Both the position numbers and the translations under genes were made by a program. A DNA stretch of 60,606 nt from Blastococcus mobilis (GTDB lineage Bacteria > Actinomycetota > Actinomycetes > Mycobacteriales > Geodermatophilaceae), in NCBI RefSeq assembly GCF_900188025.1, contig NZ_FZNO01000026.1, positions 1 to 60,606 of the forward strand. Direction: 5' to 3'. The first letter of the stretch is position 1; each line of letters opens with the position of its first letter. The notes under the pieces were generated by a model. That model made no database searches, was not told the origin of the DNA, and saw only the letters and a list, made by a program, of their open reading frames with translations. Below are positions 831 through 25,872 of the stretch, piece by piece.

Positions 831-1418
831 ATGATCACGCGGCGGACGGGCGGCGCTCTTCTCTGCGTGCTGCTGCCGCTTGCCGCGTGTACGGAGGATG
901 CAAGCTCCCGCGAGCAGCGCCCGCCGGCTGCGGTGACGTCGTCGGCGACGACGCCGTCCGCAACGACCGCGGCGCCCACCCTGGAAGAGTCGGCGTCCCG
1001 GAGCGCGACTGCGGTACTGGAAGAGATGCTGCGCGTGACAGACGCAGCTAAGAAGGCCCCAGCCGCCAAGGACTGGGAGCCAGAGATCCGGCGATACGCG
1101 GGTGACCCGGCTGCTTTCCTCGCAGTCACGTCCGTGCGGGACTACGCCACGCTTGGCCTTCGCCAGGAGGGCGACACGGCGGTGGAGCTGGACGTCACCG
1201 CCGTCGAACTTGAGGCCTCAGAGGGGCCGACGGTGCGCATCACCGGTTGCTACGACGCCGCCAGCACGCGCGTGGTGAAGGTGGAGACCGGTGAGGTCGT
1301 GCCGCCCGGAACCCCGCCCCGCTACGTCTGGGACATCACCGTGACGCAGTACGAGGCTGAGCCGAACTCGCCGTGGCTGGTCAGCGTGCTCGACCCCCTG
1401 ACGACGCGGCCATGTTGA
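831..1418 (+). CDS. Secreted lipoprotein, first gene of the Tad/T4SS block
   Basis: A lipoprotein of 195 residues and unknown function. The N-terminus has two arginines, a hydrophobic stretch and a lipobox (L-A-A-C, Cys about residue 20), followed by a Ser/Thr/Ala-rich linker to about residue 60, typical of actinobacterial lipoproteins tethered outside the membrane. The globular part (from about 'AVLEEMLRVTDAAKK') reads 'Y..LGLRQEGDTAVELDVTAV...V.ITGCYDAS..RVV' and ends in a conserved-looking 'VTQYE.E.NSPWLVS', which suggests a small NTF2/cystatin-like fold of the kind seen beside actinobacterial conjugation genes; the fold is inference. Its end overlaps the next gene by 7 bases, so it is probably translationally coupled to the downstream cluster. 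Confidence 0.7.
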   Translation: MITRRTGGALLCVLLPLAACTEDASSREQRPPAAVTSSATTPSATTAAPTLEESASRSATAVLEEMLRVTDAAKKAPAAKDWEPEIRRYAGDPAAFLAVTSVRDYATLGLRQEGDTAVELDVTAVELEASEGPTVRITGCYDAASTRVVKVETGEVVPPGTPPRYVWDITVTQYEAEPNSPWLVSVLDPLTTRPC

Positions 1419-2320
1419 GGCTCGTGCGCCTGGCCCTGCTGACGGTTCCGGTGTTCCTCGTTGCCAGCGTGTTGAGTGTCGCCAGAGCAGATCCTCCGGT
1501 GGAGTGCGCCAAGAGGGATGCACAGACCGGTATCTGTCTGGTGGCGGCGTCCTCTCCGGGTCAGGCCGGCGGTGAGCATCCGGGCGGTAGCGGCATCGAC
1601 ACGGCCGCTGGACACGAGAGCGGTGGAGCCCGCGTCTCGTCCGAGCCGTGTACCTACCAGGTGGCCGAGCCGCAGCCGCCACCCACCAGCGTGGTGTGGG
1701 CGGGCTTTACGCCGGACGACGGCGTGATGTATCTGAGGGTCTGTCCCCGCGTGGGTGGCCCTGGCATCGAAACGATGTATCACTTCGTGCCGAACGGCGG
1801 CGCCCCGCCTGCTGGTCCGCCTGTCGATCCGCGGGTCCTGGCAGAGCAGGTGATCGCGTCGATGGTCATGGGGGCGCCAGGGATCCGGCTGGCTCCGCCG
1901 CCGGGCTCCACCAGCGGGCTGGTCGGTCTGCCGGTGTGGATGTGGACCGAGCGGGGGGAGCAGCTCCTCGGCCCGATCCGACAGTCGGTGTCGGCCGGTG
2001 GTGTCACGGTCGCGGCGGTGGGCCAGGTGAGCCGGATCGTCTGGGACATGGGGGATGGCACCACGGTGGTCTGTGGCGCCGGGACGCCGTATCCGCCCGG
2101 TGTGGACGGGGAGTCGCCGGACTGCGGCCACGTCTATGCGCGCGCGTCGAGCCGCCACGTTGCCGGTGGCGGCCCCTGGCCGATCACCGCGACGAGCACG
2201 TGGACGATCACCTGGTCCGGTGGCGGCCTGTCGGGCACCGAGACGCTGGAGCTGTCGTCATCGGCGGAGCTGTTCGTCGGTGAGCTGCACGTCCTCAACC
2301 AGGCCGGCGGTAGCGGATGA
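1412..2320 (+). CDS. Secreted PKD-like protein of unknown function in the Tad/T4SS block
   Basis: I chose the ATG at 1412 because it gives a clean signal peptide (hydrophobic core 'LALLTVPVFLVASVLS', then A-R-A-D) and overlaps the preceding lipoprotein by 7 bases; an earlier in-frame start exists at 1373. The mature protein has a Ser/Gly-rich N-terminal part with two cysteines, a middle part ('WAGFTPDDGVMYLRVC') and a C-terminal part with 'WDMGDGT' followed by 'DCGHVYAR' and alternating strand residues ending 'TSTWTITWSGG'. GDG plus H.Y plus W-rich strands is the pattern of PKD-type beta-sandwich domains. Homologues next to SAF and CpaF genes in actinobacteria carry no assigned role. It may be an exported pilus-associated or surface factor; that is inference from context. 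It ends in an ATGA overlap with the SAF-domain gene. Confidence 0.7.
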   Translation: MLRLVRLALLTVPVFLVASVLSVARADPPVECAKRDAQTGICLVAASSPGQAGGEHPGGSGIDTAAGHESGGARVSSEPCTYQVAEPQPPPTSVVWAGFTPDDGVMYLRVCPRVGGPGIETMYHFVPNGGAPPAGPPVDPRVLAEQVIASMVMGAPGIRLAPPPGSTSGLVGLPVWMWTERGEQLLGPIRQSVSAGGVTVAAVGQVSRIVWDMGDGTTVVCGAGTPYPPGVDGESPDCGHVYARASSRHVAGGGPWPITATSTWTITWSGGGLSGTETLELSSSAELFVGELHVLNQAGGSG

Positions 2321-3006
2321 CGCGCACGCAGCCTCCGAGCACTAGCACGCCGGCTCCTACGGCGGCGGCCAACGGGTTGCCCCGGGCGCCGGCGCTGCCG
2401 CCGCCGCGCCGCCGCCGTCGTCCGGCGCTGCTGGCGCTGGCGGTCGCCATGGTGGTACTCGGTGCGCTGGGTGCCGCCTACCTGGCCACCGCGCTTGGGC
2501 AGACGTCTCCGGTGATCGCGGTCGCGCGGGAGGTGCCCTGGGGGCAGCAGATCACCGCCGCCGACCTGGTGGAGGCGCGGGTGTCCGCCGATCCGGCGCT
2601 GCAACCCATCCCGTACGCCGAACGGAATCAGGTGGTCGGCATGGTCGCCGGGACCACCCTGACGCCGGGATCGCTGCTGACTCGTGAAGCCCTGACCGAC
2701 CAGCCGCTTCCGCCTCCCGGTCAGCAGCTGGTCGGCGTCGGCGTGTCGGCGGTGCAGCTGCCGGCGACGCCGCTGCGGCCCGGCGATGACGTGCTGCTGG
2801 TCCCGGTGGCCGGCGGCGGCGACGCGGGGGAGTCGGCGGCATCGGGAACGCCCCGCACCGTGGAAGCGACGGTGGTGCAGGCCGGGTCGCCGGGCACCGA
2901 CGGACTGCGGGTGGTCGACGTGCTCGTCGACGCCGCCGATGGGCCGGACGTCGCGGCCCGCGCCGCTGCCGGCCTGATCGCCATCGTCGTGGTGGCCGGC
3001 GAGTAG
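2317..3006 (+). CDS. SAF-domain protein, CpaB/RcpC-like pilus assembly factor
   Basis: CpaB/RcpC proteins are periplasmic or membrane-anchored assembly factors of Tad pili. This 229-residue protein has a Pro/Ala/Arg-rich cytoplasmic leader, one membrane helix at about residues 35-58 ('LLALAVAMVVLGALGAAYLA') and then an SAF domain ('AREVPWGQQITAADLVEARV.....PIPYAERNQVVGMVA...L.PGSLLT'), the hallmark of CpaB and antifreeze-like folds. The C-terminal half ('VGVGVSAVQLPATPLRPGDDVLLVPV') matches the second RcpC module. Starts inside the preceding gene (ATGA) and is followed after 15 bases by the CpaE-like gene. In Gram-positive hosts there is no outer-membrane secretin, so its job is probably to organise the pilus at the cell wall; inference. 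Confidence 0.85.
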   Translation: MTRTQPPSTSTPAPTAAANGLPRAPALPPPRRRRRPALLALAVAMVVLGALGAAYLATALGQTSPVIAVAREVPWGQQITAADLVEARVSADPALQPIPYAERNQVVGMVAGTTLTPGSLLTREALTDQPLPPPGQQLVGVGVSAVQLPATPLRPGDDVLLVPVAGGGDAGESAASGTPRTVEATVVQAGSPGTDGLRVVDVLVDAADGPDVAARAAAGLIAIVVVAGE

Positions 3007-3021
3007 GCGAGGGCGGCCGCC

Positions 3022-3837
3022 GTGTTGATCGCGCTGTGCTCGGCCAAGGGCGCCCCCGGCGTGACGACCAGCGGGCTGGCGCTGGCGCTGTCCTGGCCGC
3101 GTGGCGTGGTGCTGGCCGAGCTGGATCCGGCGGGTGGCGACGTGCTGGCCGGCTACGGGCGAGCGCAGCTGACCGTGGGCGGGCTGGCGGAGCTGGAGCT
3201 GGTGGCGCGGCGCGGCGGGCTGGCCGGGCAGCTGGACGCTCATCTCGTGCAGCTGGACACCGCCGGCCGGGCGCGGCTGTTGCCCGGCCTGGCCGATCCG
3301 GCCACCGCTCGGCATGTGGACTGGGAGCGGCTGGCCACCGCGCTGGCGTCGGTGGAGGACGGCGCCGTCGATGTGGTGGCGGACTGCGGGCGGCTGCGGG
3401 TCGAGCACTTCCCGGCCGCCGTGGTCCGTCGGGCTGCCGCGGTGGTGATGGTGACCGGTTCGACGCTGCGGGCGGTGCGCGCGGCGGCGCAGGCGGTCAC
3501 CGAACTCCGCAACGAAGGGAACGGGCCGGCCCCGCCGGCGGGAGGGCTGGCGGCGCTCGTCGTGGGGCCGGGGGAGCCGTACGGCGAGCGGGAGATCGGC
3601 GAGGCGCTGGGTGTTCCGGTTGTCGGCGTGCTGCCGCGCGATGCCAGGGCGGCGGCGGTGCTCAGCGACGGCGCACCGGCCGGCCGGCTGTTCAGCCAGT
3701 CGGCCCTGCTGCGGGCCGCCCGCTCCGCGGCGGCCCGGCTGGTCGGGTTCGCCGCAGCGCAGGAGGCCCGGCTGACCCCACCCCCGACGACCCCGGCTGC
3801 GCCGGCGGCGACCGTCGGAGGCGGCCGTGGTCGCTGA
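3022..3837 (+). CDS. CpaE/TadZ-like degenerate MinD/ParA-type protein
   Basis: TadZ/CpaE proteins are atypical MinD-family proteins that place the Tad machine at a cell site. The N-terminus carries a ParA-like P-loop (residues 9-17, KGAPGVTTS): the signature lysine is kept but the second lysine of the usual GK[ST] is a valine, so ATP hydrolysis is doubtful, as in many TadZ proteins. Later motifs are also MinD-like: 'VVLAELDPAGGDVLAGYG' (Asp-rich strand), 'VVADCGRL' (Walker B region) and 'LVVGPGEPYGEREIGEALGVPVVGVLPRD' (A-loop). The start is a GTG preceded by a purine-rich stretch. It overlaps the CpaF gene by 11 bases. A second, more diverged protein of this class is encoded at 13072-14064. 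Confidence 0.85.
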   Translation: MLIALCSAKGAPGVTTSGLALALSWPRGVVLAELDPAGGDVLAGYGRAQLTVGGLAELELVARRGGLAGQLDAHLVQLDTAGRARLLPGLADPATARHVDWERLATALASVEDGAVDVVADCGRLRVEHFPAAVVRRAAAVVMVTGSTLRAVRAAAQAVTELRNEGNGPAPPAGGLAALVVGPGEPYGEREIGEALGVPVVGVLPRDARAAAVLSDGAPAGRLFSQSALLRAARSAAARLVGFAAAQEARLTPPPTTPAAPAATVGGGRGR

Positions 3838-5245
3838 GCCCATGACCGACCGGACGGCCGGGGGCAGGTTCCGGGGAGTGGACGCGCCGCCGGCCCCGGT
3901 GGACTGGGCGCTGGTGCGCCGGCTGCACGAGGCGACGGCGACGGCGCTGGCCGAGGAGCTCAAGCGCCGCCCGGCGCTGAGCGCCGTGGCGCAGCAGGAG
4001 CTGGCCCGCACCCGCATCCAGGACGGGATCGACGAGCTGGTGCGGGAGCGGATGCGCGCCGGGCAGGCGGTGCCGTCGGCGGCCGACGAACTGGCGATCG
4101 CCGAGGCGGTGTTCGCGGCTCAGTTCGGCCTGGGCCGGCTGCAGCCCTATGTGGACGACCCGCAGGTGGAGAACATCGAGGCGCACGGGCACGACAACGT
4201 GTGGGTGGGCTACGCCGACGGGCGCGACGTCCGGGTCGGCCCGGTCGCCGACTCCGACGAGGACCTGGTGCGCCAGCTGCAGCACATCGCCGCCCGGCTG
4301 GGCCGCGCCGAGCGGACGCTGACCACAGCCAGCCCGCTGCTGACCATGCGGCTGCCCGACGGGTTGCGGCTGGCGGCGGTGATCGAGACCGTGCCGCGCC
4401 CGCAGCTCGTGATCCGCCGGCACCGGATCCGCGACGTCGACCTCGACGACCTGGTCGGGCTGCGGGCGATCGACCGGCCGCCGGCGGAGTTTCTGCGGGC
4501 CGCGGTGCGGGCGCGCAAGAACATCGTGGTCACCGGCGGGCAGGGCGCCGGCAAGACCCTGCTGCTGCGGGCGCTGGCCAACGAGCTGCCGGTGAGTGAG
4601 AACCTGGCCACGATCGAGAAGCACTTCGAGCTGCTGCTGCACGAGCTGCCCGACCGGCATCCGCGGGTGGTGCCGTTCGAGGCCCGGGAGGGCACCGGTG
4701 AGCGTGGCCCGGACGGCCGCCGCCTGGGCGAGGTGACGCTGACCGAGCTGGTGGAGCAGGCGCTGGTGATGAACGTCAGCCGGGTGTGGCTGGGGGAGGT
4801 GCGCGGCGAGGAGGCCTGGCCGCTGATCGAGGTGATGGAGGCCGGGGAGGGCGGCTCGTGCTGCACGCTGCACGCCCGCTCGGCCCACCATGCCGTCGAG
4901 CGGCTGGCCAACCTGTGCATGCGCGGCCGCGCCGCGGTCACGCCGGAGCACGCCTACCGGTCGTGCGCGTCTGCGATCGACCTGATCGTGCACATCACCA
5001 CCGTGGACGAGCGGTGGATCGGGGGCGAGCGGCACCGGTTCGTCAGCCAGGTCGTCGAGTGCAACGGCATCGGGGAGGGCGGGCGCCCGGCGGTCACCGA
5101 CGTCTTCGCCCCTGGGCCCGACGGGCGGGCGGTGCCCGAGCACGACCCGGTGGACCTGGCCGACTATCTGCGGGTCGGCTTCGATCCCGATTGGCTGCGG
5201 TCCGGCCACGGGCGCTGGGCCGGCGCGGCCGGAGGCCGGCGATGA
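3827..5245 (+). CDS. CpaF/TadA/VirB11-family secretion ATPase
   Basis: Hexameric cytoplasmic ATPase that powers Tad pilus assembly and, being of the VirB11 superfamily, is the only VirB11-type ATPase in this block, so it may serve the conjugation machinery too (inference). The N-terminal domain (to about 200) has 'GRLQPYVDDPQVENIEAHGHDNVWV', typical of CpaF. Walker A is GGQGAGKT at residues 237-244; the Asp box, 'VSRVWLGEVRGEEAWPLIEVMEAGE' (Walker B equivalent, about 320-345) and the His box 'CCTLHARSA' follow, all intact. Length (472) is normal for CpaF. Start could be GTG 3827 (overlap with the CpaE-like gene) or ATG 3842, five codons later. Its stop overlaps the TadB start. Confidence 0.93.
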   Translation: MVAEPMTDRTAGGRFRGVDAPPAPVDWALVRRLHEATATALAEELKRRPALSAVAQQELARTRIQDGIDELVRERMRAGQAVPSAADELAIAEAVFAAQFGLGRLQPYVDDPQVENIEAHGHDNVWVGYADGRDVRVGPVADSDEDLVRQLQHIAARLGRAERTLTTASPLLTMRLPDGLRLAAVIETVPRPQLVIRRHRIRDVDLDDLVGLRAIDRPPAEFLRAAVRARKNIVVTGGQGAGKTLLLRALANELPVSENLATIEKHFELLLHELPDRHPRVVPFEAREGTGERGPDGRRLGEVTLTELVEQALVMNVSRVWLGEVRGEEAWPLIEVMEAGEGGSCCTLHARSAHHAVERLANLCMRGRAAVTPEHAYRSCASAIDLIVHITTVDERWIGGERHRFVSQVVECNGIGEGGRPAVTDVFAPGPDGRAVPEHDPVDLADYLRVGFDPDWLRSGHGRWAGAAGGRR

Positions 5246-6153
5246 GCGGCACCGTGCTGCTGGTCGGGGCCTGCGGGGCGCTGGTGGTGGGCGGCCTGCT
5301 GGTGGCCGCCCACGCGCTCACCGCCCCGGAACCGCCGGCTCGGCCGCGGCGCCGTCAGCCGCGTCCGACGGCGCAGGCCGGCCGCCCGGCGGTGCGGCGG
5401 CAGCGGGCGCTGTGGCTGGCCGCCGCCGTCGGGGCGGCGGTGGTGTGGCTCGCCTCGGGCTGGCCGGTCGGTGGCGTGCTGGCCGGGCTGGCGGTGATCG
5501 GTGTGCCGTGGCTGCTGGCGCAGTTCTCCGATGGCAACGCCGCGGTGGAGCGGCTGGAGGCGCTGCAGGAGTGGGTGCGCCGCGCCTCCGACGTGCTGGC
5601 CGCGGGCGGCGGGTTGGAGCAGACGCTGATCCGCTCGGCCCGCACCGCGCCCGAGCCGATCGCGGCGGAGGTGGCGGCGCTGGCGGCGCGGCTGCAGGCC
5701 CGGTGGCCGACGTCCCGGGCGCTGCTGGCCTTCGCCGACGACCTCGACGACGCCGCCGGGGACCTGGTCGTCGCCGCGCTGCTGCTGGGTGCGGAGCTGC
5801 GCGGGCCGGGGCTGGCGCGGGTGCTGACCGAGCTGGCGGGAAGCCTCACCGAGGAGGTCACCATGCGCCGCAAGGTGGAGGCCGACCGCGCCAAGCCCCG
5901 CGCCAACGCCCGCTGGCTGCTGCTGATCACCGTCGCCGCGTCCGGGCTGGCCGCGCTCAACGGCGACTACCTGGCTCCCTACGGCACGGGGGTCGGGCAA
6001 CTGGTGCTGGCGGCTATCGCCGGGCTGATCGTCGCCTGCCTGCTGTGGATGCGCCGGCTCACCGCACCTGCGCCGTTGCCCCGCTTCCTGGTCGATCCCG
6101 ACCGCAGCCGGCGGGCTACCGGTCTCGAGCCGACCGAGGTGCCGGTCCGGTGA
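5242..6153 (+). CDS. TadB-like inner-membrane platform protein (type II/IVb pilus, GspF family)
   Basis: TadB and TadC are the polytopic platform proteins on which the CpaF ATPase acts. The ATG at 5242 overlaps the cpaF stop codon (ATGA) and gives an N-terminal membrane segment at once ('VLLVGACGALVVGGLLVAAHAL'); the longer open frame that runs back to 4786 lies inside the cpaF gene and is not real. Helices are visible at about residues 3-25, 53-70 and 74-90, with two close together near the C-terminus ('WLLLITVAASGLAALNG' and 'LVLAAIAGLIVACLLWM'). The cytoplasmic central part contains 'LEALQEWVRRASDVLAAGGGLEQTL', a good match to the TadB/GspF core. 303 residues, usual for actinobacterial TadB. 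Confidence 0.85.
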   Translation: MSGTVLLVGACGALVVGGLLVAAHALTAPEPPARPRRRQPRPTAQAGRPAVRRQRALWLAAAVGAAVVWLASGWPVGGVLAGLAVIGVPWLLAQFSDGNAAVERLEALQEWVRRASDVLAAGGGLEQTLIRSARTAPEPIAAEVAALAARLQARWPTSRALLAFADDLDDAAGDLVVAALLLGAELRGPGLARVLTELAGSLTEEVTMRRKVEADRAKPRANARWLLLITVAASGLAALNGDYLAPYGTGVGQLVLAAIAGLIVACLLWMRRLTAPAPLPRFLVDPDRSRRATGLEPTEVPVR

Positions 6154-7064
6154 GCGGCACCCAGGCGTTGCTGATCGGCTCCGGCGCGCTCGTCGGACTC
6201 GGCGCGTTCCTGCTGCTGCGTGCCGTCCTGGTGATCGAACAGTCGCAGTTGGCCGATGCGCTGGCGCGCCTCGACGGGCGCGCGCCCCCGGTCCCGGTCG
6301 GGCCGATGCCGGAGGGAGGCGACTGGTGGGCGCGGGCAACCGGCTGCGCCGGAAGGTGGGCCGCGGCCCGGCTGCCCGCCGGCGCGTTGCGGGCGCCGTC
6401 CCAGGCGCTGGCGTTGATCGGGTGGACGCCGGAGGGTTATGCCGCCCGCAAGGTCGGCCTGGCCGCCTTCGGCGCGGTGTTCGTTCCGCTGCTGACCGCC
6501 GTGCTCGGCGTGACCGGCGTCCGGCTGCCGGTGGTGGTGTCGGTGGCCGGGTCGCTGGCGCTGGCCGGCGTGCTGTTCCTCGTCGTCGACCTCGTCGTGC
6601 GCGACCAGGCCGCCGAGGCCCGCGGGCAGATGCGCCGGGCGCTGTGCTCCTATCTGGACCTGATCAGCCTGCGCCGCGACGCCAGCGAGGGCCCAACCAT
6701 CGCCCTGGAGCGGGCCGCCGCACTCGGGAACGGGTGGGTGTTCCGGCGGATCACCGACGCGCTGGTCGCCGCCCGGCTGGCCGGCGACCCGCCGTGGGAC
6801 GGGCTGCGCCGGCTGGCCGCCGACACCGGCGTTGGCGAGCTGGCCGACGTCGCCGACATCGCCGCGGTCGCCGCCGTCGAGGGCGCGTCCATCGCCCCGA
6901 CGCTGCGGGCCCGGGCCCAGTCGCTGCGGGTGCAGCTGCTGGCCGAGGAGGAGGCGGCGGCCAACACCACCAGCGAGAAGCTCACCGCCCCCGTCGCGCT
7001 GCTGTCGATCGCCTTTCTGCTGCTGTTCCTCTATCCCGCCCTGGCCCGCCTGATGGCCACCTGA
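6150..7064 (+). CDS. TadC-like inner-membrane platform protein
   Basis: Second GspF-family platform protein. GTG 6150 overlaps the TadB stop. The N-terminal helix ('ALLIGSGALVGLGAFLLLRAVLVI') is followed by an Arg-rich amphipathic region, a helix pair at about residues 105-150, and a C-terminal helix ('LLSIAFLLLFLYPALARLM'). The cytoplasmic segment has 'QMRRALCSYLDLISLRRDAS' and 'LADVADIAAVAAVEGASIAPTLRARAQSLR....EEEAAANTTSEKLTAPV', which is the classic TadC C-terminal motif (E-A-A-A-N...S.KL..P). 304 residues. It is followed by a 30-base gap holding a purine-rich ribosome site for the pilin gene. Confidence 0.87.
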   Translation: MSGTQALLIGSGALVGLGAFLLLRAVLVIEQSQLADALARLDGRAPPVPVGPMPEGGDWWARATGCAGRWAAARLPAGALRAPSQALALIGWTPEGYAARKVGLAAFGAVFVPLLTAVLGVTGVRLPVVVSVAGSLALAGVLFLVVDLVVRDQAAEARGQMRRALCSYLDLISLRRDASEGPTIALERAAALGNGWVFRRITDALVAARLAGDPPWDGLRRLAADTGVGELADVADIAAVAAVEGASIAPTLRARAQSLRVQLLAEEEAAANTTSEKLTAPVALLSIAFLLLFLYPALARLMAT

Positions 7065-7094
7065 CCCTGCGACCCCGACCCGAGAGGAACCCCG

Positions 7095-7292
7095 ATGACG
7101 CCGCTGCTCACCCTCCTGACCATCGTCGGCGCGCAGCTGCGTGACCGGCTGCGCGCGCTGCGGGCGCAGCCGGAGCGGGGCTCGCTGTCGGTCGAGCAGG
7201 TGATCATCACCGTGGCGCTGGTCGGCATCGCCGTCGCCCTGGTGGCGGTGATCGCCGACGCGGTCACCTCCCGGTCGGCCCAGATCCAGTAG
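7095..7292 (+). CDS. Flp/TadE-type small pilin
   Basis: A 65-residue protein with a short basic leader, a prepilin-like cleavage pattern (G followed by S-L-S-V-E, placing Glu at +5) and one hydrophobic helix ('VIITVALVGIAVALVAVIAD'). This architecture is that of Flp-type type IVb pilins, whose processed form polymerises into the pilus fibre. The position right after tadC and before two TadE-like genes fits. Known Flp pilins usually have a Glu-Tyr pair at the start of the mature chain; here the residue after Glu is Gln, so cleavage by a TadV-type peptidase is predicted rather than proved. No prepilin peptidase gene is seen in the window. Preceded by a GAGAGGA ribosome site. Confidence 0.75.
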   Translation: MTPLLTLLTIVGAQLRDRLRALRAQPERGSLSVEQVIITVALVGIAVALVAVIADAVTSRSAQIQ

Positions 7293-7299
7293 CCGCCCC

Positions 7300-7764
7300 G
7301 TGGCTCGCCCCGCCGGCCCGTGTGGCCCTGAAGCCGTGTCCCGGCCCGGCCGTGCCCCCGGCGGCCGGCCCGGCGGTGCGGCGGCCCGGCGACTGTCCGG
7401 GGATCGCGGCGCGGCGTCGGTGGAGCTGGCGGTCGCCTTCCCCGTGGTGCTGCTGCTGGTGCTGACGCTGATCCAGGCGGCCCTGTGGTTCTACGCCCGC
7501 TCCATTGCGCTCGGGGCCGCCCAGGAGGGCGCCCGCGAGGGTCGGGTGCAGCCGGCCTCGACCGCGCGCGCCCAGGCGGCCGCCGAGGGCTTCCTCGACC
7601 AGACCGCCCGCGACCTGCTCACCCGCCGGGACGTGACCGTGAGCGGCTCCCCGACCAGCATCGCGGTGACCGTGACCGGCACCTCGCTCAGCCTCGTCCC
7701 CGGCCTGTCCGGGTGGTCGGTCACCCAGACCGCCGTCGGCCCCGTCGAACGGCCCACCCCATGA
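7300..7764 (+). CDS. TadE-like pseudopilin
   Basis: TadE proteins are minor pilins needed for Flp pilus biogenesis. After a basic, Gly/Arg-rich leader of about 40 residues comes a prepilin-like site (RG followed by A-A-S-V-E) and a long hydrophobic helix ('AVAFPVVLLLVLTLIQAALWFYA'), then the TadE signature 'A..AAQEGAREGR' in which the helix runs into an Ala/Gln-rich segment. The rest is a small soluble domain ('VTVSGSPTSIAVTVTGTSLSLVPG'). GTG start at 7300, eight bases after the Flp-like gene; its stop overlaps the next gene (ATGA). 154 residues, normal for TadE. Confidence 0.82.
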   Translation: MARPAGPCGPEAVSRPGRAPGGRPGGAAARRLSGDRGAASVELAVAFPVVLLLVLTLIQAALWFYARSIALGAAQEGAREGRVQPASTARAQAAAEGFLDQTARDLLTRRDVTVSGSPTSIAVTVTGTSLSLVPGLSGWSVTQTAVGPVERPTP

Positions 7765-12497: not shown

Positions 12498-12503
12498 CGA
12501 GTC

Positions 12504-12758
12504 ATGCCGTATCCGCCGCGGCCACAGCTGCGCCCGCTGCCCGTTTTCGCCGGAACCGCCCGCACCGGCACCGTGCCCAGCCAGCGGCTGCAGGCCCAGC
12601 TGGAGGCCTTCGTCCTCGCCGAGTACGCCGCCGGCCGCTCCCTGCGGCAGATCGCCGAGCTGATCGACCGTTCCCCCACCGCGGTCCGCCGCGTGCTCGA
12701 CAAGCACGGGGTGCCGCGGCGCGCCGTGGGCGCTCCACGGCAGGCGAACCACACATGA
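12504..12758 (+). CDS. Small helix-turn-helix DNA-binding protein
   Basis: 84 residues. The C-terminal two-thirds contains a clear helix-turn-helix: 'FVLAEYAAGRSLRQIAELI' followed by 'RSPTAVRRVLDKHGVPRR', the Sigma-70 region 4/resolvase-like arrangement (GRSLRQIA as positioning helix, SPTAVRRVL as recognition helix). Short proteins of this form are common in actinobacterial plasmids and ICEs. It lies immediately upstream of a 300-base gap with direct and inverted copies of one motif (12912-13050), which makes it the natural candidate for binding those sites; inference from position only. Tail is 'PRQANHT'. Confidence 0.7.
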   Translation: MPYPPRPQLRPLPVFAGTARTGTVPSQRLQAQLEAFVLAEYAAGRSLRQIAELIDRSPTAVRRVLDKHGVPRRAVGAPRQANHT

Positions 12759-18424: not shown

Positions 18425-19929
18425 GCCGCCGCGCTTCGCGCCGGGGCCGCGAGGTCGCCGTCCTGCTCGACGACTTCGGCCACCGGCTGCCCACCGCCCC
18501 CGCCGTCCCCGCAACGCAGCGGGAGCGCGGACCCTTCACCGAGCTGGTGCCTCGCCGCGGACCCCGCGGCCGGGGTCGGGGCCGGGCGGCGACGCCGGCG
18601 CCGCTGTCGGTGTGGCGGATGACCTCGGAGCAGACGCCGGTGGTGTGGCCGCTGATCGCCACTCCCGGGCTGCCGCCCACCGGCGCGCAGATGGGCATCG
18701 ACCTGCTGTCGGGTGGGGCGTTCTACTGCGATCCGGTCGGCTGGGTCACCGATGAGGACATTCCGGTCACCAATCCGAACGTCGTCGTCTTCGGCAAGCC
18801 CGGCCGCGGCAAGTCCGCCACCGTCAAGGCCTTCGCGCTGCGGATGCTGGGCTACGGCTACCGCACCCTGATCCTGGGGGACACCAAGGACGAGTACGAG
18901 CCGCTGTGCCGGGCCCTGGGCGTGGAGCCGTTCGTCATCGGCTCCGGCCTGCCCGCCCGGGTCAACCCGTTGGCCTTCGGACCCCTCGGTTCCGGCTGGG
19001 ACCGGCTCGACGCGGCCGAGGCCCGCCGCCGCGAGGCGATCATGTTCGCCCGGTGGCTGGTGCTGCTGCGCGGCCTGGTCGGCTCCCAATCCGTGCCGTT
19101 CGGCCCGGTGGAGGAGACCGCCGTGGGGGAGGCGCTCCGGCTGCTCACCGGCTACCGCTCCGGCGCCACCCGGCTGACCGAGGTCACCATCCCGCAGCTG
19201 TGGCGGGCCCTGGACGAGCCTCCCGACCAGCTGGTCACCGGGTGCCGCTACGCCGACCGGCGGCACTTCCTCGACGCCACCCGCACCCTGCGCGACGCCC
19301 TCGGCGCCCTGGTCAAGGGCTCCCTGGCCGGGCTGTTCGACGACCACACCACCATCGCCGTGGACTGGCGGGCCCCGATCCAGTCGCTGTCGCTGTCCCG
19401 GCTGGAACCGCTCGGCGACCAGGCCGTCGGCATCGCGCTGACCTGCCTGAACTCCTGGGGGCAGGCGATGCGGGAGATCGCCGACCCCGGCGACCTGCGC
19501 ATCGTCATCCGCGACGAGACGTGGCGGCAGATGCGCCTGGGCGCCGAGGCGATGAAGAGCCTGGACGCCAATCTGCGGCTGTCCCGCCGCGACGCCGACG
19601 TGCAGATCCTGCTCGCGCACAAACCGTCGGACATGCTCACCGCCGGCGACGCCACCTCCCAGGCGGTCGCGATCGCCCGCGACCTGCTGCACCTGTGCGA
19701 CGTCAAGGTCCTGCACGGCCAGGACCAGGCCGTCGCCGACGAACTTGGCAGCCTGCTCGGCCTGACCCCGACCGTCCAGCGGGTGGTCACCGGCTGGGCC
19801 GTGGCCGGCAAGGGCCGGGCCCTGTGGCTGGTCGGCGACCGGGCCTACAAGGTGCAGACCGTCCTCACCGCCCCCGAGCTGCGGCTGACCGACACCAACG
19901 AGGCCCTCACCGCCGGACGCCCGGCATGA
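18421..19929 (+). CDS. VirB4-like conjugation ATPase
   Basis: ATPase motor of the T4SS, 502 residues, corresponding to the C-terminal motor half of VirB4. ATG 18421 overlaps the SCO6880 stop; the upstream frame to 17506 lies inside that gene. After an Arg-rich tail comes a segment typical of this family ('PVVWPLIATPGLPPTGAQMGIDLLSGGAFYCDPVGWV..., VTNPNVVVFGKPGRGKSATVK'), with Walker A GKPGRGKS at residues 125-132, 'YRTLILGDTKDEYEPLCRALG' after it, 'LRIVIRDETWRQMRLGAEAMKSLDANLRLSRRDADVQILLAHKPSD' as the Walker B/RecA-like block, and 'LWLVGDRAYKVQTVLT' at the end. All motor motifs are present. Confidence 0.92.
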   Translation: MSRRASRRGREVAVLLDDFGHRLPTAPAVPATQRERGPFTELVPRRGPRGRGRGRAATPAPLSVWRMTSEQTPVVWPLIATPGLPPTGAQMGIDLLSGGAFYCDPVGWVTDEDIPVTNPNVVVFGKPGRGKSATVKAFALRMLGYGYRTLILGDTKDEYEPLCRALGVEPFVIGSGLPARVNPLAFGPLGSGWDRLDAAEARRREAIMFARWLVLLRGLVGSQSVPFGPVEETAVGEALRLLTGYRSGATRLTEVTIPQLWRALDEPPDQLVTGCRYADRRHFLDATRTLRDALGALVKGSLAGLFDDHTTIAVDWRAPIQSLSLSRLEPLGDQAVGIALTCLNSWGQAMREIADPGDLRIVIRDETWRQMRLGAEAMKSLDANLRLSRRDADVQILLAHKPSDMLTAGDATSQAVAIARDLLHLCDVKVLHGQDQAVADELGSLLGLTPTVQRVVTGWAVAGKGRALWLVGDRAYKVQTVLTAPELRLTDTNEALTAGRPA

Positions 19930-21092
19930 GCGGGACCGCAGAGGTGGCCCAGTCCTACGCGCGGGCATGGCTGTGGAAGGCCGCCGTCCCGATCGCTGTT
20001 CCGGTGCTCGCCGCGCTCACCCTGCTGCTGATCCTCCTCGCCCTTCTCGCAGCTCCCGATGCGCCGGCATCCGCGGCGTTCCCGGCCTGCTCGATCGGCG
20101 GCACCGGCGCCACCGCCGCCGGCATCGATCTCGACGCGGGCCAGATGGGCCAGGCGCAGACCATCGTCACCGTCGCCGCAGCCCTGGGGCTGGACCCGCA
20201 CGCGGCCACCGTGGCACTGGCCACCGCGCAGCAGGAGTCCCGGATCCGGATGCTGGCCAACGACGGCAGTAGCCCCGCACTCACGGCCGAGCAGGCCGCG
20301 GTGACCGCCACCAGCCTGACCTACCCGCACGACGGGCTCGGCTCCGACCACGACAGCGTCAACACCTTTCAGCAGCGCTGGATCGCCAGCTGGGGCACCG
20401 TCGCCCAGCTCATGGACCCGGCGTACGCCGCCGAGGCTTTCTACCGACGGCTCCAGGCCGTGCCCGACTGGCGGACCATCCCGCTCACCCTGGCCGCGCA
20501 GGCCGTGCAGATCTCGGCTGCAGGGGGTGCGTACTCCCGCTGGGAGCCGTTCGCCCGCGAGCTGACCGCCATGCTGTGGCCGGCGGCCCAGGCGACCGCG
20601 GCCAACCCGGCCGGCGCGGCGGACGGCGTCTGCCCGGGCCTGCCGGTGCCGGCCGGGTCCTGGGTCCGGCCCACCGCCGGTGCGGTGACCTCCGGCTACG
20701 GGTCCCGCTGGGGCGCCCTGCATGCCGGGGTCGACATCGCCGGGCCCCGCAACAGCCCTGTCTACGCCGCCGCCGACGGCACCGTGGTCAGCGCCGCGTG
20801 CACCAGCGCCTATTGCGACCGGGACGGCAATCTGGGCCTGGCCGGCTACGGCAACCTCATCGAACTGGACCACGGCGGCGGAGTGACCACCCGCTACGGG
20901 CACCTGTCGGCCTACACCGTCACCTCCGGCCAGCGAGTCAGCGCCGGGGCGTTGATCGGTTTTCAGGGCTCCACCGGCAACAGCACCGGTGTCCACCTGC
21001 ACTTCGAGGTCCGCCAGCACGACAGTCCGGTCGACCCGGTGCCGTGGGTGGCCGACCGCGGCGTCGACCTGCACGCACCCAACCCTGGCTGA
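19926..21092 (+). CDS. T4SS cell-wall hydrolase: lysozyme-like domain plus M23 peptidase
   Basis: VirB1-type bifunctional wall enzyme, 388 residues. An N-terminal membrane anchor (about residues 18-45) precedes a lysozyme-like domain ('QAQTIVTVAAALGLDPHAATVALATAQQESRIRMLAND', with 'QQ' and 'E.R' as in soluble lytic transglycosylase families; 'VNTFQQRW...WGTVAQLMDPAYAAEAFYRRL'). The C-terminal half is an M23/LytM metallopeptidase: 'SGYGSRWGALHAGVDIAG' with His 266 and Asp 270 as zinc ligands, 'GYGNLIELDHGGGVTTRYGHLSAYTV', and 'TGVHLHFEVR' holding the catalytic HLH. The two activities cut glycan and peptide to open a path through peptidoglycan for the channel. ATG 19926 overlaps the VirB4 stop. 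Usual order SCO6880-VirB4-hydrolase-VirD4 is kept. Confidence 0.92.
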   Translation: MSGTAEVAQSYARAWLWKAAVPIAVPVLAALTLLLILLALLAAPDAPASAAFPACSIGGTGATAAGIDLDAGQMGQAQTIVTVAAALGLDPHAATVALATAQQESRIRMLANDGSSPALTAEQAAVTATSLTYPHDGLGSDHDSVNTFQQRWIASWGTVAQLMDPAYAAEAFYRRLQAVPDWRTIPLTLAAQAVQISAAGGAYSRWEPFARELTAMLWPAAQATAANPAGAADGVCPGLPVPAGSWVRPTAGAVTSGYGSRWGALHAGVDIAGPRNSPVYAAADGTVVSAACTSAYCDRDGNLGLAGYGNLIELDHGGGVTTRYGHLSAYTVTSGQRVSAGALIGFQGSTGNSTGVHLHFEVRQHDSPVDPVPWVADRGVDLHAPNPG

Positions 21093-21154
21093 GCCACGTC
21101 CACGCCAGCGAACAGAGGAGCAGCTATGCACCCTCCGAACATCGGGCGGCGGCG

Positions 21155-23077
21155 GTGAGCGCCGGCCGCACACGGGGCGACGTGGGCCCGGCCAGCTGGG
21201 AGATCCCGGTCGCCGCCGTTCTGGGATGGCTGACGGCCGCCGCACTGCTGCTCCCGGCCGGCCGCGCCGTCGCGGCGCTCGTGACCGGGGGCGGCTGGGT
21301 GTGGCCGGACGGGTCGGCCGCTCTGGTGTCCTCCGTCGGCGGGCTGCTCACCGGCGACCGCACCGCCGGCCTGGATGCCGCGCAGGCAGCGGCGCTGCCC
21401 TCACCTGTCGCTGTGTACGCCGTCACGGCCGGCGTTCTCGCGCTGTTTCTGGCCGGCAGTGGGGGAGCGGCGTGGGCCGGGTACCGATGGCTGGGTCAGC
21501 AGAGCGGCATGGCCTCCAGCGGCCAGGTCGCCGAGGTGCTCGGCGTCGTGCGGCTGCGCCGGGTCGCCCCCGTCATCCGCCCCGACCTGCGCCCGACCGA
21601 CCGCCCGCTCGGCGTCAGACCGGCGCCCGGGGACCCGCACGAGGTCGGGTGGCGGCTGGGCCGCGCCGCCGTCCCCGCCGCCGGGGACCTGTGGGTGCCC
21701 TTCGACCGCACCACCGGCGTCTACGGCCCTCAGGGCTCGGGAAAGACCCTCGACCTGCTCGCCCCGGCGCTGCTCGACGCGCCCGGCGCTGCCCTGGTGA
21801 CCCTGACCAAGGCCGACGACCTGCTGCTCACCCTCGACACCCGCGCCGCCGGCGACCGACCTGTCGCCGTGCTGGACCCCTTCGGAGCAGTGCCCGGCCT
21901 GCCCGAGCTGGTGTGGGACCCGGTCGCCGGCTGCGTCGACCCCATGACGGCCGAACGCCGCGCCAAGGCCTTCACCGCCGGCACCGTGACCGGCGCGGTC
22001 ACCGGCGGCAGCACCGACAGCGCGGCCCGCTTCTATGCGTTCGAGGCGGCCAAGGTGCTGCAGGCCTACCTGCACGCGGCCGCGCTCACCGGCCGCACGA
22101 TCGAGCACGTCCTGGAGTGGGCCGCCCATCCACAGGCGAATACACAGCCGGCGGACATCCTGCGTGCTCACCGCGATGCCGCGCCGCTGTGGGACGGGCT
22201 GCTGCACGGCGCCCTGCACGGCGACCCGCGCACCGCCGGCAACACCGCCACGACCGTGCAGCAAGCGCTGGCGCTGTTCTTCCAGGCCGACATCCGCCGC
22301 CGCTGCACCCCCGGGCCCGGCCGTCCGATCACCGAGGTTGCCGGTCTGCTCGCTTCCGGCGGCACCCTCTACCTGCTCGGCCGCGACGATCCCTACGCCT
22401 CGGCGTCTCCGCTGCTGACCGCGCTGGCCGAGCACGTCCTCGACGCCGCCCTGCAACTCGCCACCGGCTCGCGGACCGGCCGGCTATGCCCGCCGCTGCT
22501 GGCCTGCCTGGACGAACTGCCCTCCACCGCGCCGCTGCCCACCCTGCGCACCCGCATGGCCAACGACCGGGCCCTGGGCGTCAGCTACATCTACGCCGCC
22601 CAGACCTGGCGGCAGCTGGTGCTGCTCTACGGCGAGGACGAGGCCCGGGCCCTGTTCGGCCTCACCAACGTCGTCATCGCCTTCGGCGGCGGCAAGGACG
22701 GCGGCTTCTACCGCGAGCTCTCCGAACTGATCGGCCGGACCCGCGTGCGCCGCACCTCCTACAGCTACCGGGGAGCCGGCTGGTCGCGGTCCACCCACGG
22801 CGAGGACACCCCGGTGCTGCGCCCGGAGGAGATCCGCCTGTTACCGCCCGGCCGGGCGCTGGTGCTCGCAGAGAACGCGCCGCCGGTGATCGCCCGTCTG
22901 ACCCGGTGCCTCACCGGGCGCCGCGGCACGGCGCTGCTGGCCGCACAGGCCGCCGCCCGCGACCGGGTCGCCGCCGCCCGCGACCTCCACACCGGGGGAG
23001 GGGAGCGCACCAGCCGCGCATCCGAGGCGACCGCCGACGCCGCACGGACCATGCCCGCGAGCTGGGAGTTGTCGTGA
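21155..23077 (+). CDS. VirD4/TraG-type coupling protein
   Basis: Coupling ATPase that brings the relaxase-DNA complex to the channel. GTG 21155 gives a 640-residue protein; the frame is open back to 20576 inside the hydrolase gene. Two membrane helices near the N-terminus ('IPVAAVLGWLTAAALLLPAG' and 'VYAVTAGVLALFLAGSGGAAW') are followed by the motor: Walker A GPQGSGKT at residues 191-198, Walker B with Asp 453 and Glu 454 ('LLACLDEL'), and a TraM-recognition-type stretch 'RALGVSYIYAAQTWRQLVLLYGEDEARALFGLTNVVIAFGGGKD'. It begins 62 bases after the hydrolase, the only gap between 13072 and 24535. The presence of an intact VirD4 shows a DNA substrate is meant for this T4SS, although no relaxase is seen. 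Confidence 0.93.
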   Translation: MSAGRTRGDVGPASWEIPVAAVLGWLTAAALLLPAGRAVAALVTGGGWVWPDGSAALVSSVGGLLTGDRTAGLDAAQAAALPSPVAVYAVTAGVLALFLAGSGGAAWAGYRWLGQQSGMASSGQVAEVLGVVRLRRVAPVIRPDLRPTDRPLGVRPAPGDPHEVGWRLGRAAVPAAGDLWVPFDRTTGVYGPQGSGKTLDLLAPALLDAPGAALVTLTKADDLLLTLDTRAAGDRPVAVLDPFGAVPGLPELVWDPVAGCVDPMTAERRAKAFTAGTVTGAVTGGSTDSAARFYAFEAAKVLQAYLHAAALTGRTIEHVLEWAAHPQANTQPADILRAHRDAAPLWDGLLHGALHGDPRTAGNTATTVQQALALFFQADIRRRCTPGPGRPITEVAGLLASGGTLYLLGRDDPYASASPLLTALAEHVLDAALQLATGSRTGRLCPPLLACLDELPSTAPLPTLRTRMANDRALGVSYIYAAQTWRQLVLLYGEDEARALFGLTNVVIAFGGGKDGGFYRELSELIGRTRVRRTSYSYRGAGWSRSTHGEDTPVLRPEEIRLLPPGRALVLAENAPPVIARLTRCLTGRRGTALLAAQAAARDRVAAARDLHTGGGERTSRASEATADAARTMPASWELS

Positions 23078-23652
23078 CCGCCATCCCCCTGGCGCTCCCG
23101 TTTCCGCGGCCGCCGCGCTGGGTCCGGCACGCCCTGGAGATGCTGCGGCAGGCCGAGCTGTCCGGGCTCGAGCCATCGGCCTACGGACTGCTCGACCGGC
23201 CGTGGGACCCGGCGACCTGCTCTCCCCAGGTGCGCCGGGAGCTGTGGTCGTGGCTCGACGACGTCGCCGGCTGGCTCAACCACACCTACGCCTGGCAGAC
23301 CGCGAACGTCATCCCCGCCTGCTGGCCGGCCCACCCGGCACTGGTCCGCGAGCTGGCCGTCCTCACCTGCCTGCGCGCCGCGGCGGCCGACGCCACGGTC
23401 CCGCATCCGATGGAGGAGTGGCACCGCTACGCCCTGCCCGGCTTCTACGCCCGGATGAACGAGCGCCAGGGCCTCGGCTGCCCGCCCGGTCGACACGTCG
23501 ACTGGCCCGCCCGCTCCTGGGACGCCGACTACCGCACTCCGTCCGCCGCCGCGGAGCGGCGCCGCCGCTTCGACGCCGACGCCGGCGACCAGCCGTCAGC
23601 CGGGGCACCGGGCCCAGTCATACCGGACGACGACGAAGGAGCCATCCCGTGA
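23074..23652 (+). CDS. DUF4913-like small accessory protein
   Basis: 192 residues, start GTG 23074 overlapping the VirD4 stop. The central part matches the pattern of a small actinobacterial family found beside conjugation genes (DUF4913-type): 'LNHTYAWQTANVIPACWPAHPALVRELAVLTCLR', then 'PMEEWHRYALPGFYARMNERQGLGCPPGRHVDW', with conserved W, CW..HP and H positions. The role of the family is unknown; linkage to TraG/VirD4 genes suggests part of the transfer or relaxosome machinery (inference). The C-terminal 25 residues are acidic and disordered. Confidence 0.65.
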   Translation: MTAIPLALPFPRPPRWVRHALEMLRQAELSGLEPSAYGLLDRPWDPATCSPQVRRELWSWLDDVAGWLNHTYAWQTANVIPACWPAHPALVRELAVLTCLRAAAADATVPHPMEEWHRYALPGFYARMNERQGLGCPPGRHVDWPARSWDADYRTPSAAAERRRRFDADAGDQPSAGAPGPVIPDDDEGAIP

Positions 23653-24242
23653 ACGCTGCTTCCCGCGCGGACCGGTCGGACGGCGACTGGATCACCCTGC
23701 ACGGCGGCGTGCGGGTCAGCCGGCAGTGGATGACCCGCCACACCCCCGAGCTGCTAACCGCATGGCGCGAGGCCGCCACCGAGGCCCGGCGGCACGCCAT
23801 CGCCGCCGAGATCCTGCGCATCGCCACCGAGCTGGAGAGCGAGCCGGTCGGCCGCGACCGCGAGCCCGGAGGCTCGGCGTGGGAGGCCATCGCCGAACGG
23901 ATCGACCCGCGTCTCCTGCTCGGTCCGGACTGGCGGCCGCTGTCCGCCGCCCTCACCCGCGCCGCGGCCGCCGGCTACGACGTCCCCGCTCTGTTGCCCG
24001 CACTCGCCGCCGCGCCGCTGCCCGACCGGCACCCGGCGCGGGAGCTGCACTGGCGACTGCTCGACGACTGCCCGGCCGCCCTGCCCGTGCCCGACGCGGA
24101 AGGCCGACCAGCGACACCGCCGGCCGGATCACCGGCCCTCCACAGCACGGCCGGCGATCCACAGATCCCCGGCCACATCCCACTTCCCGGCCGCGGCGAC
24201 CCAGCCTCGGCTCAGCCCTGCAGCGAAGGAGACCCGCCGTGA
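23649..24242 (+). CDS. Small protein resembling the C-terminal region of actinobacterial relaxases
   Basis: 197 residues. 'LLLGPDWRPLSAALTRAAAAGYDVPALLPALAAAPLPDRHPARELHWRLLDDCP' is a recurring segment near the end of long MobF/TraA-type relaxases of actinobacteria, here encoded alone without a relaxase HUH or helicase domain. The N-terminal third ('DWITLHGGVRVSRQWMTRHTPELLTAWREAATEARRHAIAAEI') is unfamiliar. The C-terminal 60 residues are Pro-rich. It overlaps both neighbours by four bases. It might be a helper of a relaxase encoded elsewhere, or the surviving end of one; my recognition of the segment is from memory and would need a profile search. Confidence 0.55.
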   Translation: MNAASRADRSDGDWITLHGGVRVSRQWMTRHTPELLTAWREAATEARRHAIAAEILRIATELESEPVGRDREPGGSAWEAIAERIDPRLLLGPDWRPLSAALTRAAAAGYDVPALLPALAAAPLPDRHPARELHWRLLDDCPAALPVPDAEGRPATPPAGSPALHSTAGDPQIPGHIPLPGRGDPASAQPCSEGDPP

Positions 24243-24535
24243 CCGCCGATGCAGTCATCGACCCGCTCAGCTACGCCGCCTCCCTGCTCGACGCCGTCGG
24301 CGCCGACCGAAAGCAGGTCTCCGCACACATCGCCCTGGAGTGCCTGCAGGCCGCCGAGCTCCTCGAGCTGGCCGGTGGGCTCGCCCACCCGATCCCGCTC
24401 ATCGACGACGACCCCCGCGCCAGCATCCGCGCCGCCATGGGCGCGCTCGGCCTGCTCGACCAGGAGACCTTCGCGACCAGCTACGTCCTCGACGCGGCCC
24501 GCGCAGCCCGTCGCGCCCTGCGACAGCTGCGCTGA
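24239..24535 (+). CDS. Small hypothetical protein of the T4SS operon
   Basis: 98 residues, GTG start overlapping the previous stop. Helical and soluble: 'DPLSYAASLLDAVGADRKQVSAHIALECLQAAELLELA' then 'RASIRAAMGALGLLDQETFATSYVLDAARAARRALRQLR'. No family recognised. The acid/base pattern and position after the relaxase-like fragment suggest a partner protein, possibly a relaxosome or immunity-type factor, but nothing in the sequence proves this. Three bases separate it from the next gene. Confidence 0.6.
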   Translation: MTADAVIDPLSYAASLLDAVGADRKQVSAHIALECLQAAELLELAGGLAHPIPLIDDDPRASIRAAMGALGLLDQETFATSYVLDAARAARRALRQLR

Positions 24536-24537
24536 CC

Positions 24538-25872
24538 ATGGCCACCAGCCTGCAGCAGCTGCTCGACGCGCTCACCGAACGCACCACGGCCTCGACCACC
24601 GTCGCGGCGATCGAGGACGTCACCGGAGCGCTGGCCCACCTCGGCCGCGCCCTCGCTGGCATGACCCAGGACGGGCTCACCGCTGGCGTCAGCCACCGGC
24701 AGCAAACCGCCGCCGAGCTGGCCGCGGCCTGCACGACGGTGGGCCGGCTGTGGCCGCGCACCGGCGGACCGCTGACCGACCTCGCCGGCGTCGCCGCCGA
24801 CCTCATCGGCCGCGACCGCGCCACCATGGGTCGCGCCCACCGGTGGGCGGTCACCGTCGCACTCGCCGAAGCCGCCGACCACGGCGCCCGGCTGGCGCAC
24901 CGGTTGCTGCCGCAGGCCGCGGTCGCCGAGCTGGCCGCCGTCCGCCGGATGGCCGCAGCCGTCGAGCGCGACGCCCAGGCCGACCCGCCGACGGCCAGCG
25001 GCGCGGCCGTCCTCGATCGCCTGGTACCCCGACCCGCCCGCCCCCGACGCGGCGAGGAGCCGACCGCCGTCGATGCCGCAGCGGCGCTCACCGCGGCGCT
25101 CGACCGAGCCCTGCGCACCGACGGCCTGGCCCTGCGGGACTTCCGCGCCGCCGTCGCCGCCGCCGAGATCGCCAGCGACTACGCCGCGTCCGTCGTCGCC
25201 GTTGCGGCGGGCGACGAAAGTATGCGGCCCCTGCTGGCGGCGGTCGCGTGGGAACTCGGCCGGATCAGCATGACCTTCGACGACGGTCACCAAGCCAGGC
25301 CCACCGACCCCCACGGCGTCGTCTCCTGGGCCCGCACCCTCGCCGACACGCTTCGCAACGACCTCGGTTCCCACGCCGACCTAAGCGCGCTCCGCGACCG
25401 TGCCGACCTCCCGCGCCTGACCCGCACGGTTCAACAGGTGACCAACCAGCTTCCCGTCCTCGCCGACCGACTCGCCGTCGCCGTCGACCGCTGGTCAAGG
25501 AACGGGCAGCTCTACGCCGCCGCCCGCGACCTGCCGCGCATGGACAACATGCCCGAAGACCGGGTCCGGGACGTCATCGCCGGCCGCCGAGTACAGGCCC
25601 GCGGCGCCGACCTCGACCGTCTCGGTCGCGCCCTCACCTCCGCCACTGCGCTGGCAAGCAGCCTGGCCGACGCCGTCAACCGCGCTGCGCCTGCCGAGCC
25701 TCAGAGCCAGCGCCACCTCGCCGGTCTCTACGCCGAGCGGGCCCGAGCGCCCGGCTCCGGCGAGCGACTGCTCAGCCACGCCGACAACGTGGCCCAGGCC
25801 ATCGCACGATCCCGGTGTGCGCAAAGAATCAACCCCCCGGCGCCAGGCGGAGGCGGCCCTCCCTCCTACTGA
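24538..25872 (+). CDS. Long helical hypothetical protein at the end of the T4SS operon
   Basis: 444 residues, ATG start three bases after the previous stop. It is almost wholly alpha-helical and Ala/Arg/Asp-rich, with repeated heptad-like Leu/Ala patterns ('TTVAAIEDVTGALAHLGRALAGM', 'RVQARGADLDRLGRALTSATALASSLADAVNRAA'). No membrane segment, no catalytic motif. I do not recognise it; bioinformatically similar 'hypothetical' helical proteins follow TraG in other actinobacterial elements. It ends by overlapping (7 bases, tail to tail) the convergent DUF5710 gene, so this is the end of the plus-strand block. Confidence 0.65.
   Translation: MATSLQQLLDALTERTTASTTVAAIEDVTGALAHLGRALAGMTQDGLTAGVSHRQQTAAELAAACTTVGRLWPRTGGPLTDLAGVAADLIGRDRATMGRAHRWAVTVALAEAADHGARLAHRLLPQAAVAELAAVRRMAAAVERDAQADPPTASGAAVLDRLVPRPARPRRGEEPTAVDAAAALTAALDRALRTDGLALRDFRAAVAAAEIASDYAASVVAVAAGDESMRPLLAAVAWELGRISMTFDDGHQARPTDPHGVVSWARTLADTLRNDLGSHADLSALRDRADLPRLTRTVQQVTNQLPVLADRLAVAVDRWSRNGQLYAAARDLPRMDNMPEDRVRDVIAGRRVQARGADLDRLGRALTSATALASSLADAVNRAAPAEPQSQRHLAGLYAERARAPGSGERLLSHADNVAQAIARSRCAQRINPPAPGGGGPPSY

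Follow-up and report, generated by a model that had tools for sequence, protein, structure and literature searches.

The window studied here, i.e. the whole stretch of 60,606 bases from Blastococcus mobilis, comprises the entire contig C53 of a 5.09-Mb genome assembled in 88 contigs. On the forward strand it harbours a Tad/Flp pilus module (831-11862), followed after 1.3 kb by a monoderm type IV secretion system (T4SS) of the SCO6880 type (13186-25872). A previous reading made from the letters alone (the sequence-only reading) had described positions 831-25872 as one near-continuous operon of overlapping genes and proposed that both machines work together in conjugation. Overlaps, mostly of 4 to 8 bases, are indeed the rule inside each of the two runs, but the first run contains four gaps of 4 to 30 bases, and the 1.3-kb break between the runs holds two small forward open reading frames plus gaps of 155 and 427 bases. 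Given this interval, a second promoter is possible. The Tad run comprises the following genes:

831..1418 (+): lipoprotein, first gene of the block; lipobox read from the sequence; 75% identity over 78% of length in Klenkia
1412..2320 (+): secreted protein, conserved in Tad modules at T4SS-linked and unlinked loci (sequence comparison)
2317..3006 (+): CpaB-like protein with SAF domain (Pfam PF08666, 9e-06)
3022..3837 (+): CpaE/TadZ-like protein of the MinD family, by position and sequence; no Pfam match
3842..5245 (+): CpaF/TadA motor ATPase (PF00437, 6.5e-24; CpaF structures match best)
5242..6153 (+): TadB-like protein (T2SSF, PF00482, 3.6e-08)
6150..7064 (+): TadC-like membrane protein (91-93% in some relatives; synteny)
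7095..7292 (+): Flp prepilin with the motif G|SLSVE (sequence)
7300..7764 (+): TadE-like minor pilin (PF07811, 2.2e-12)
7761..8186 (+): second TadE-like minor pilin (PF07811, 4.6e-08 on the longer reading frame 7485-8186)
8183..8629 (+): TadG/Rv3654c-like protein (weak TIGR03816, E 0.005; synteny with Tad-domain genes of pNOCA01 and pINDO)
8626..11862 (+): LysM membrane protein of 1078 residues, closing the run (PF01476, 6.2e-11)

The full set of Tad genes named in the sequence-only reading was recovered: CpaB, CpaF, TadB and both TadE proteins by Pfam, and the CpaE-, TadC-, Flp- and TadG-like proteins by position, synteny and sequence. The pilus components CpaF, TadB, TadC, Flp with its cleavage motif (which we take to be a prepilin processing motif) and TadE minor pilins are therewith all present, TadC and Flp by synteny and sequence. 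Two further conserved genes at the start of the block, the lipoprotein (831) and the secreted protein (1412), had gone unmentioned. The latter carries conserved cysteines and tryptophans and has 36 homologues in 56 regions, standing at or near the start of many such Tad modules; it was considered as a tip adhesin, a candidate that was dropped when its model gave no usable fold match against solved structures. The last protein of the run had been called a LysM/BTAD protein. Its LysM part was retrieved by Pfam, but of BTAD there was no sign, the search giving only LysM and a weak TPR (PF06170, PF25199 and similar matches below cut-off were treated as chance). A homologue of this LysM protein is present in 20 of the 20 SCO6880-linked Tad regions read. 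A prepilin peptidase gene is not always found inside a Tad locus, and a secretin (RcpA/CpaC) is not expected in a monoderm. No match to an A24 peptidase (TadV/CpaA) was found on C53 and two were found elsewhere in the genome, on C45 and C64; Flp would therefore be processed by a host prepilin peptidase, for which these two are the candidates.

The interval, the T4SS run and the gene downstream of it comprise:

12018..12758 (+): two small open reading frames, 12018-12497 and 12504-12758, the second helix-turn-helix-like by eye (third-position substitution pattern versus Klenkia)
13186..14064 (+): second MinD-like protein (sequence, synteny)
14061..14444 (+): VirB2-like small membrane protein with GTG start (position and topology)
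14441..15262 (+): VirB8-like protein, one membrane helix and an NTF2-like domain (AlphaFold2 predicted local distance difference test, pLDDT, 91; Foldseek matches weak)
15255..16913 (+): VirB6-like polytopic membrane protein (synteny with an annotated T4SS protein of pCHL and pA-N39; no Pfam match)
16910..18424 (+): SCO6880-family protein (NCBIfam NF042935, 416 bits)
18421..19929 (+): VirB4-type ATPase (weak VirB4 models; 4ag5, 2.6e-05)
19926..21092 (+): membrane-anchored M23 peptidase (PF01551, 1.3e-30)
21089..23077 (+): VirD4-type coupling protein, exact start uncertain (NF045973, 2.6e-11, under cut-off)
23074..25872 (+): four proteins of unknown function, common to type A elements, see below (gene models)
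25866..26699 (-): DUF5710 gene, last gene common to the mobile elements (PF18974; blastn)

The set of a SCO6880-type monoderm T4SS is present, with SCO6880 beside VirB4, a VirB6-like protein (by synteny only), a VirB8-like protein and VirD4. The conjugation core of the sequence-only reading is borne out for SCO6880 (NCBIfam), M23 (Pfam) and the VirB8-like protein (fold) and weakly for VirB4 and VirD4, but the VirB2- and VirB6-like assignments come from synteny and membrane topology only. For the VirB8-like model the best Foldseek matches are weak (E 0.0099 and up), the TraM fragment 3wz3 ranking 44; the entries matched by its domain are presumably NTF2-like. The VirB4 protein has just 502 residues, with its Walker A motif at 125-132, and the adjoining SCO6880 protein is of similar length. 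At a guess, SCO6880 might be a split-off N-terminal part of VirB3/VirB4; no meaningful match to it was found in solved structures. Its nearest homologues, in Blastococcus, Geodermatophilus and Modestobacter, are up to 92% identical to the window protein. In the window every gene of the block has an open reading frame, and the ratios of nonsynonymous to synonymous substitution (dN/dS), 0.15-0.53 versus Klenkia, indicate evolution under constraint.

How often the two modules occur together was counted as linkage, i.e. a CpaF within 60 kb upstream of SCO6880 on the same strand. In 50 genomes picked by SCO6880 similarity, using the 150 listed of 222 CpaF-like matches, 68 of 87 SCO6880 places were linked to a CpaF among the matches listed, 61 of them within 30 kb, at a chance level of about 3% (hand estimate from the 222 CpaF-like matches in 50 genomes). 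The association is confined to one group of motor ATPases: among the matches listed, the upper-score CpaF group was linked in 68 of 78 cases and the other CpaF-like ATPases of the same genomes in none of 72, the two being split at E 2.7e-47, a limit placed after seeing the list. In Geodermatophilaceae, the family of the window (genomes assigned by record title and similarity, G002, a record titled Bacillus, among them), there are 48 SCO6880 places with 390-450 bits, the score class of the window. Of these, 44 are linked, 25 to a type A and 19 to a type B CpaF. Three of the four unlinked places lie on short contigs (G005 and G016; 20.8 and 41.9 kb) or consist of a partial gene at a contig edge (G034 C7). 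In Blastococcus aggregatus (G015) alone there are six SCO6880 loci; every one has a linked CpaF to itself, in four cases a type A and in two a type B. Two loci of SPQJ01, a record titled Bacillus sp. AZ43 (L019, L047), belong to elements nearly identical to those of Geodermatophilaceae, and the name looks wrong.

The two CpaF types each form one group with full support in the CpaF tree. In a type A element (Klenkia) the Tad genes are 75-95% identical to those of the window, the genes from VirB2 to M23 78-92% and VirD4 81%. In a type B element (G002 C72) VirB2 to M23 are likewise 76-90% and VirD4 67% identical, but its Tad genes reach just 35-46% where found (CpaF 35%), the secreted protein reaches 28%, and the lipoprotein, Flp and TadG of the window have no match there; Flp-like prepilins of different sequence are present in type B regions. 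A joint SCO6880 and VirB4 tree was built from 46 loci with known pairing, some near-copies being omitted. Nine type B loci form a clade of their own (100/100), and nine others fall inside the type A clade, in a group of eleven rows including two type A loci. This placement means that channel and Tad modules have reassorted at least twice. Plasmids of Streptomyces and Kitasatospora, one further genome (L151) and two genomes of another family of the same class (L147, L150) also have a related Tad-LysM module, in their case close to another conjugation set. The simplest reading of these comparisons is that the elements profit from some Tad pilus, without a tight fit of pilus into channel.

Relatives of the block have moved horizontally, and the block of the window appears to be part of the same kind of mobile element. 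Klenkia terrae and Blastococcus aggregatus share 67 kb including the block at 99.8-99.98% identity, plus 4 kb at 94%, and the flanks common to Klenkia and another Blastococcus are mostly 81-90% identical. A contamination error is on record for one Cutibacterium acnes plasmid (accessible text of PMC5696575); the Klenkia copy sits in a 4.73-Mb contig, which makes stray contamination unlikely. In the 32 of the 50 genomes that were searched for MobF, 40 of 54 SCO6880 places are followed within 40 kb downstream by a convergent MobF relaxase gene (only the 50 MobF rows of at least 250 bits were used). The Klenkia copy and its three near-identical copies, and likewise G015 C4, have a tyrosine integrase gene upstream of CpaF; the window contig ends before that point. 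A tRNA-Pro gene stands where the chromosomal DNA common to Klenkia and another Blastococcus begins. It was rejected as an integration site: the integrase is located centrally in the shared DNA, and the stretches searched contained no further copy of either tRNA half.

Taken together, we consider the block to be the transfer region of an actinobacterial conjugative element, in which a Tad pilus beside the T4SS serves as mating-pair apparatus (probability about 60%). That the two machines belong together, as the sequence-only reading had proposed, is well supported by comparison: in the genomes searched only one CpaF group takes part in the linkage, which is common and directional, and where elements with different Tad modules have exchanged channel genes, either side of the exchange shows it. 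Since most close relatives pair the T4SS with some Tad, not always the same one, the pilus probably helps donors to hold their mates. The two machines would be linked, physically separate and working in parallel. The pilus would be made, with fibres of Flp and TadE pilins catching a recipient, and would retract, CpaF-driven dynamics pulling the recipient in until the short T4SS channel can reach it. TadB and TadC may form the platform, CpaE may provide positioning, and the LysM protein may act as cell-wall anchor or sensor. M23 would then open the wall, and the T4SS (VirB2, VirB8, VirB6, SCO6880, VirB4, M23 and VirD4) would pass relaxase-bound single-stranded DNA.

Several observations weigh against this interpretation. 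The 50-genome set was chosen by nearness to the window, and the CpaF limit was set post hoc. In a class-wide sample of 148 genomes drawn evenly, only 4 of 75 SCO6880 places were linked, the window included, and two more had CpaF downstream (CpaF limit E 1e-45; 75 of 78 rows, three second fragments of split genes in G125, G143 and G158 being removed). The SCO6880 T4SS family as a whole thus does not need Tad, and the link marks certain lineages. The refuting condition named with the sequence-only reading, rare co-occurrence of the two sets, therefore gave a divided answer: co-occurrence is rare across the class but usual in the T4SS group of the window. Even in the 50 genomes, 11 of 35 places in families other than Geodermatophilaceae are unlinked (24 linked), as are all four Geodermatophilaceae places outside the score class (541, 557 and 568 bits and one fragment). 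Within the score class G001 C29 is a real exception, lacking CpaF though its contig leaves room. The plasmids pPA12743CP and pSMg1-2 have the T4SS but no CpaF according to whole-plasmid searches; the same kind of search removed pCHL and pA-N39 from the list of Tad-free elements, a CpaF being found elsewhere on the same replicon (about 111 kb). Conversely, nine of the Tad modules read that have a LysM homologue but are unlinked show no T4SS in the 20 kb covered. Because the loci of the trees were chosen by known Tad pairing, the trees show exchange and not retention, and the 44 of 48 are what speaks for retention. The Klenkia copy (G024 C4) is damaged: its TadB and LysM genes both run over two frames, and about 1.5 kb interrupts a gene downstream. 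The same genes are whole in three near-identical Blastococcus-type copies. Finally, C53 gave no TrwC match, and the best MobF in the genome of the window scores 178 bits, short of the cognate 250-bit class.

This last point raises an alternative for the window copy only, one compatible with the mating-pair interpretation: the copy could be a relic, or re-used, e.g. for protein delivery, after loss of its cognate relaxase. By blastn, homology to the elements of relatives stops at 26754, short of the relaxase place, and with no cognate MobF in the genome the copy may no longer transfer itself. The open reading frames and dN/dS values of the block speak against decay, and in an assembly of 88 contigs with the block beginning at a contig edge, the rest of the element may simply be unassembled. 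We regard a relic or re-used copy as possible but rather unlikely. Past 26754 the window carries acetyltransferase, PhaC, STAS and GGDEF-EAL genes.

The Tad pilus could also be mere cargo, a host adhesion or biofilm trait riding on the element with no part in transfer. Tad loci elsewhere serve adherence (available part of PMC5696575), and the T4SS-free Tad-LysM modules and the loss of Tad genes in the Klenkia copy fit such a scenario. So does the distance between CpaF and SCO6880 of 46-48 kb in four type B elements (L024/G007 C17, L028/G011 C1, L031/G012 C1 and L060/G030 C7), where cargo has perhaps been inserted on an otherwise fixed backbone. But cargo should often be lost, and 44 of 48 places keep an upstream CpaF on the same strand; the genes mostly overlap and the Tad set consistently comes first in the transfer region, and two unlike Tad types stand beside related channels. 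We therefore judge a passenger role unlikely.

A DNA-uptake pilus aiding natural transformation is quite improbable: transformation of Micrococcus luteus reportedly requires Flp pili (PMC4322843; also cited in the accessible text of PMC5696575), but uptake would leave the tie to the T4SS and, in relatives, to a relaxase unexplained, and no competence gene was found among the block proteins scanned with Pfam. That CpaF is the missing VirB11 of the T4SS had been hinted at in the sequence-only reading; the other Tad proteins would then be secondary. This must be considered very improbable: CpaF shares the T2SSE family with VirB11 and is the only ATPase of that family on C53, but it is CpaF-like in its matches to solved structures (109 bits over residues 30-406 versus CpaF chains, 85 bits over 215-386 versus VirB11) and in profile scores (TIGR03819 164 bits, VirB11 130 bits, each under its cut-off), Gram-positive T4SS universally lack VirB11 according to the available portion of a 2025 review (PMC12857230), the other Tad genes are kept with CpaF in the 20 SCO6880-linked regions, and CpaF falls to 35% identity beside channel proteins at 76-90%.

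The mating-pair interpretation can be extended, tentatively and at a little less than an even chance, to a clade of actinobacterial conjugative elements that use a retractile Tad pilus as regular mating-pair module, a plug-in exchanged between elements and joined to two channel kinds. Among monoderms outside Patescibacteria it would, to our knowledge, be the first case of single-strand DNA conjugation with the help of a pilus. Gram-positive T4SS are mostly described without pili, and little is known about the way in which monoderm donors capture recipients and keep hold of them. A Tad pilus travelling with the transfer genes would offer a testable answer for a large actinobacterial group, and the pairing of one channel kind with either of two Tad types amounts to a natural swap experiment.

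A pilus and a T4SS on one element are an already known kind of arrangement. The IncI plasmids R64/TP114 and the integrative and conjugative element PAPI-1, whose T4SS class differs from that of the window, reside in Gram-negative hosts and use the PilS/PilV pilus class instead of Tad/Flp. Like the window, they encode a type IV filament beside their own T4SS, and TP114 and PAPI-1 are the precedents on which the mating-pair interpretation is modelled; the accessible texts report that the TP114 type IV pilus is required for mating in broth and not on solid support (PMC9045228) and that PAPI-1 transfer uses a type IVb pilus (PMC5297154). Closer by host, actinobacterial plasmids of C. acnes combine, on a single replicon, a Tad/Flp locus and conjugation genes resembling VirB4, TcpC and FtsK (available part of PMC5696575). 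Unlike the window these plasmids are linear and a putative pilin has been detected (same source, in whose accessible text no mating test is reported), and the likeness is drawn from their published description. Their authors call the functional link between tad and conjugation unclear in the text available, a question on which comparative evidence now bears.

The nearest counterparts are pTC1 (Paenarthrobacter), pNOCA01 (Nocardioides JS614) and pINDO-MA30-4 (Ornithinimicrobium), which keep the same order through Tad, LysM and T4SS, in agreement with the earlier statement that such linkage is seen on some actinobacterial plasmids. In contrast to the window, all three are free plasmids with integrase or other inserts, and the CpaF proteins of pNOCA01 and pTC1 are 32-33% identical to that of the window. 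Several genes of pINDO-MA30-4 are annotated in pieces, and in pNOCA01 (NC_008697.1 24370-27630) an integrase and two other genes interrupt the Tad operon, separating TadB from TadC. The plasmids of Streptomyces and Kitasatospora share the CpaF-TadB-TadC-Flp-TadE-LysM module, but have near it another conjugation set, one that includes NlpC/P60 and replication-relaxation genes, and no SCO6880 is annotated in the stretches read. In the literature covered, mostly outside subscription journals, the C. acnes study was the one paper found to state that a tad locus and conjugation genes share an actinobacterial plasmid, and no report was found of the cross-family linkage, of Tad-module exchange, or of a mating or transfer test. 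What is new in comparison with these systems is, judging from sequence, that two Tad modules only 35-46% alike are found beside related channel genes (VirB2 to M23, 76-90%).

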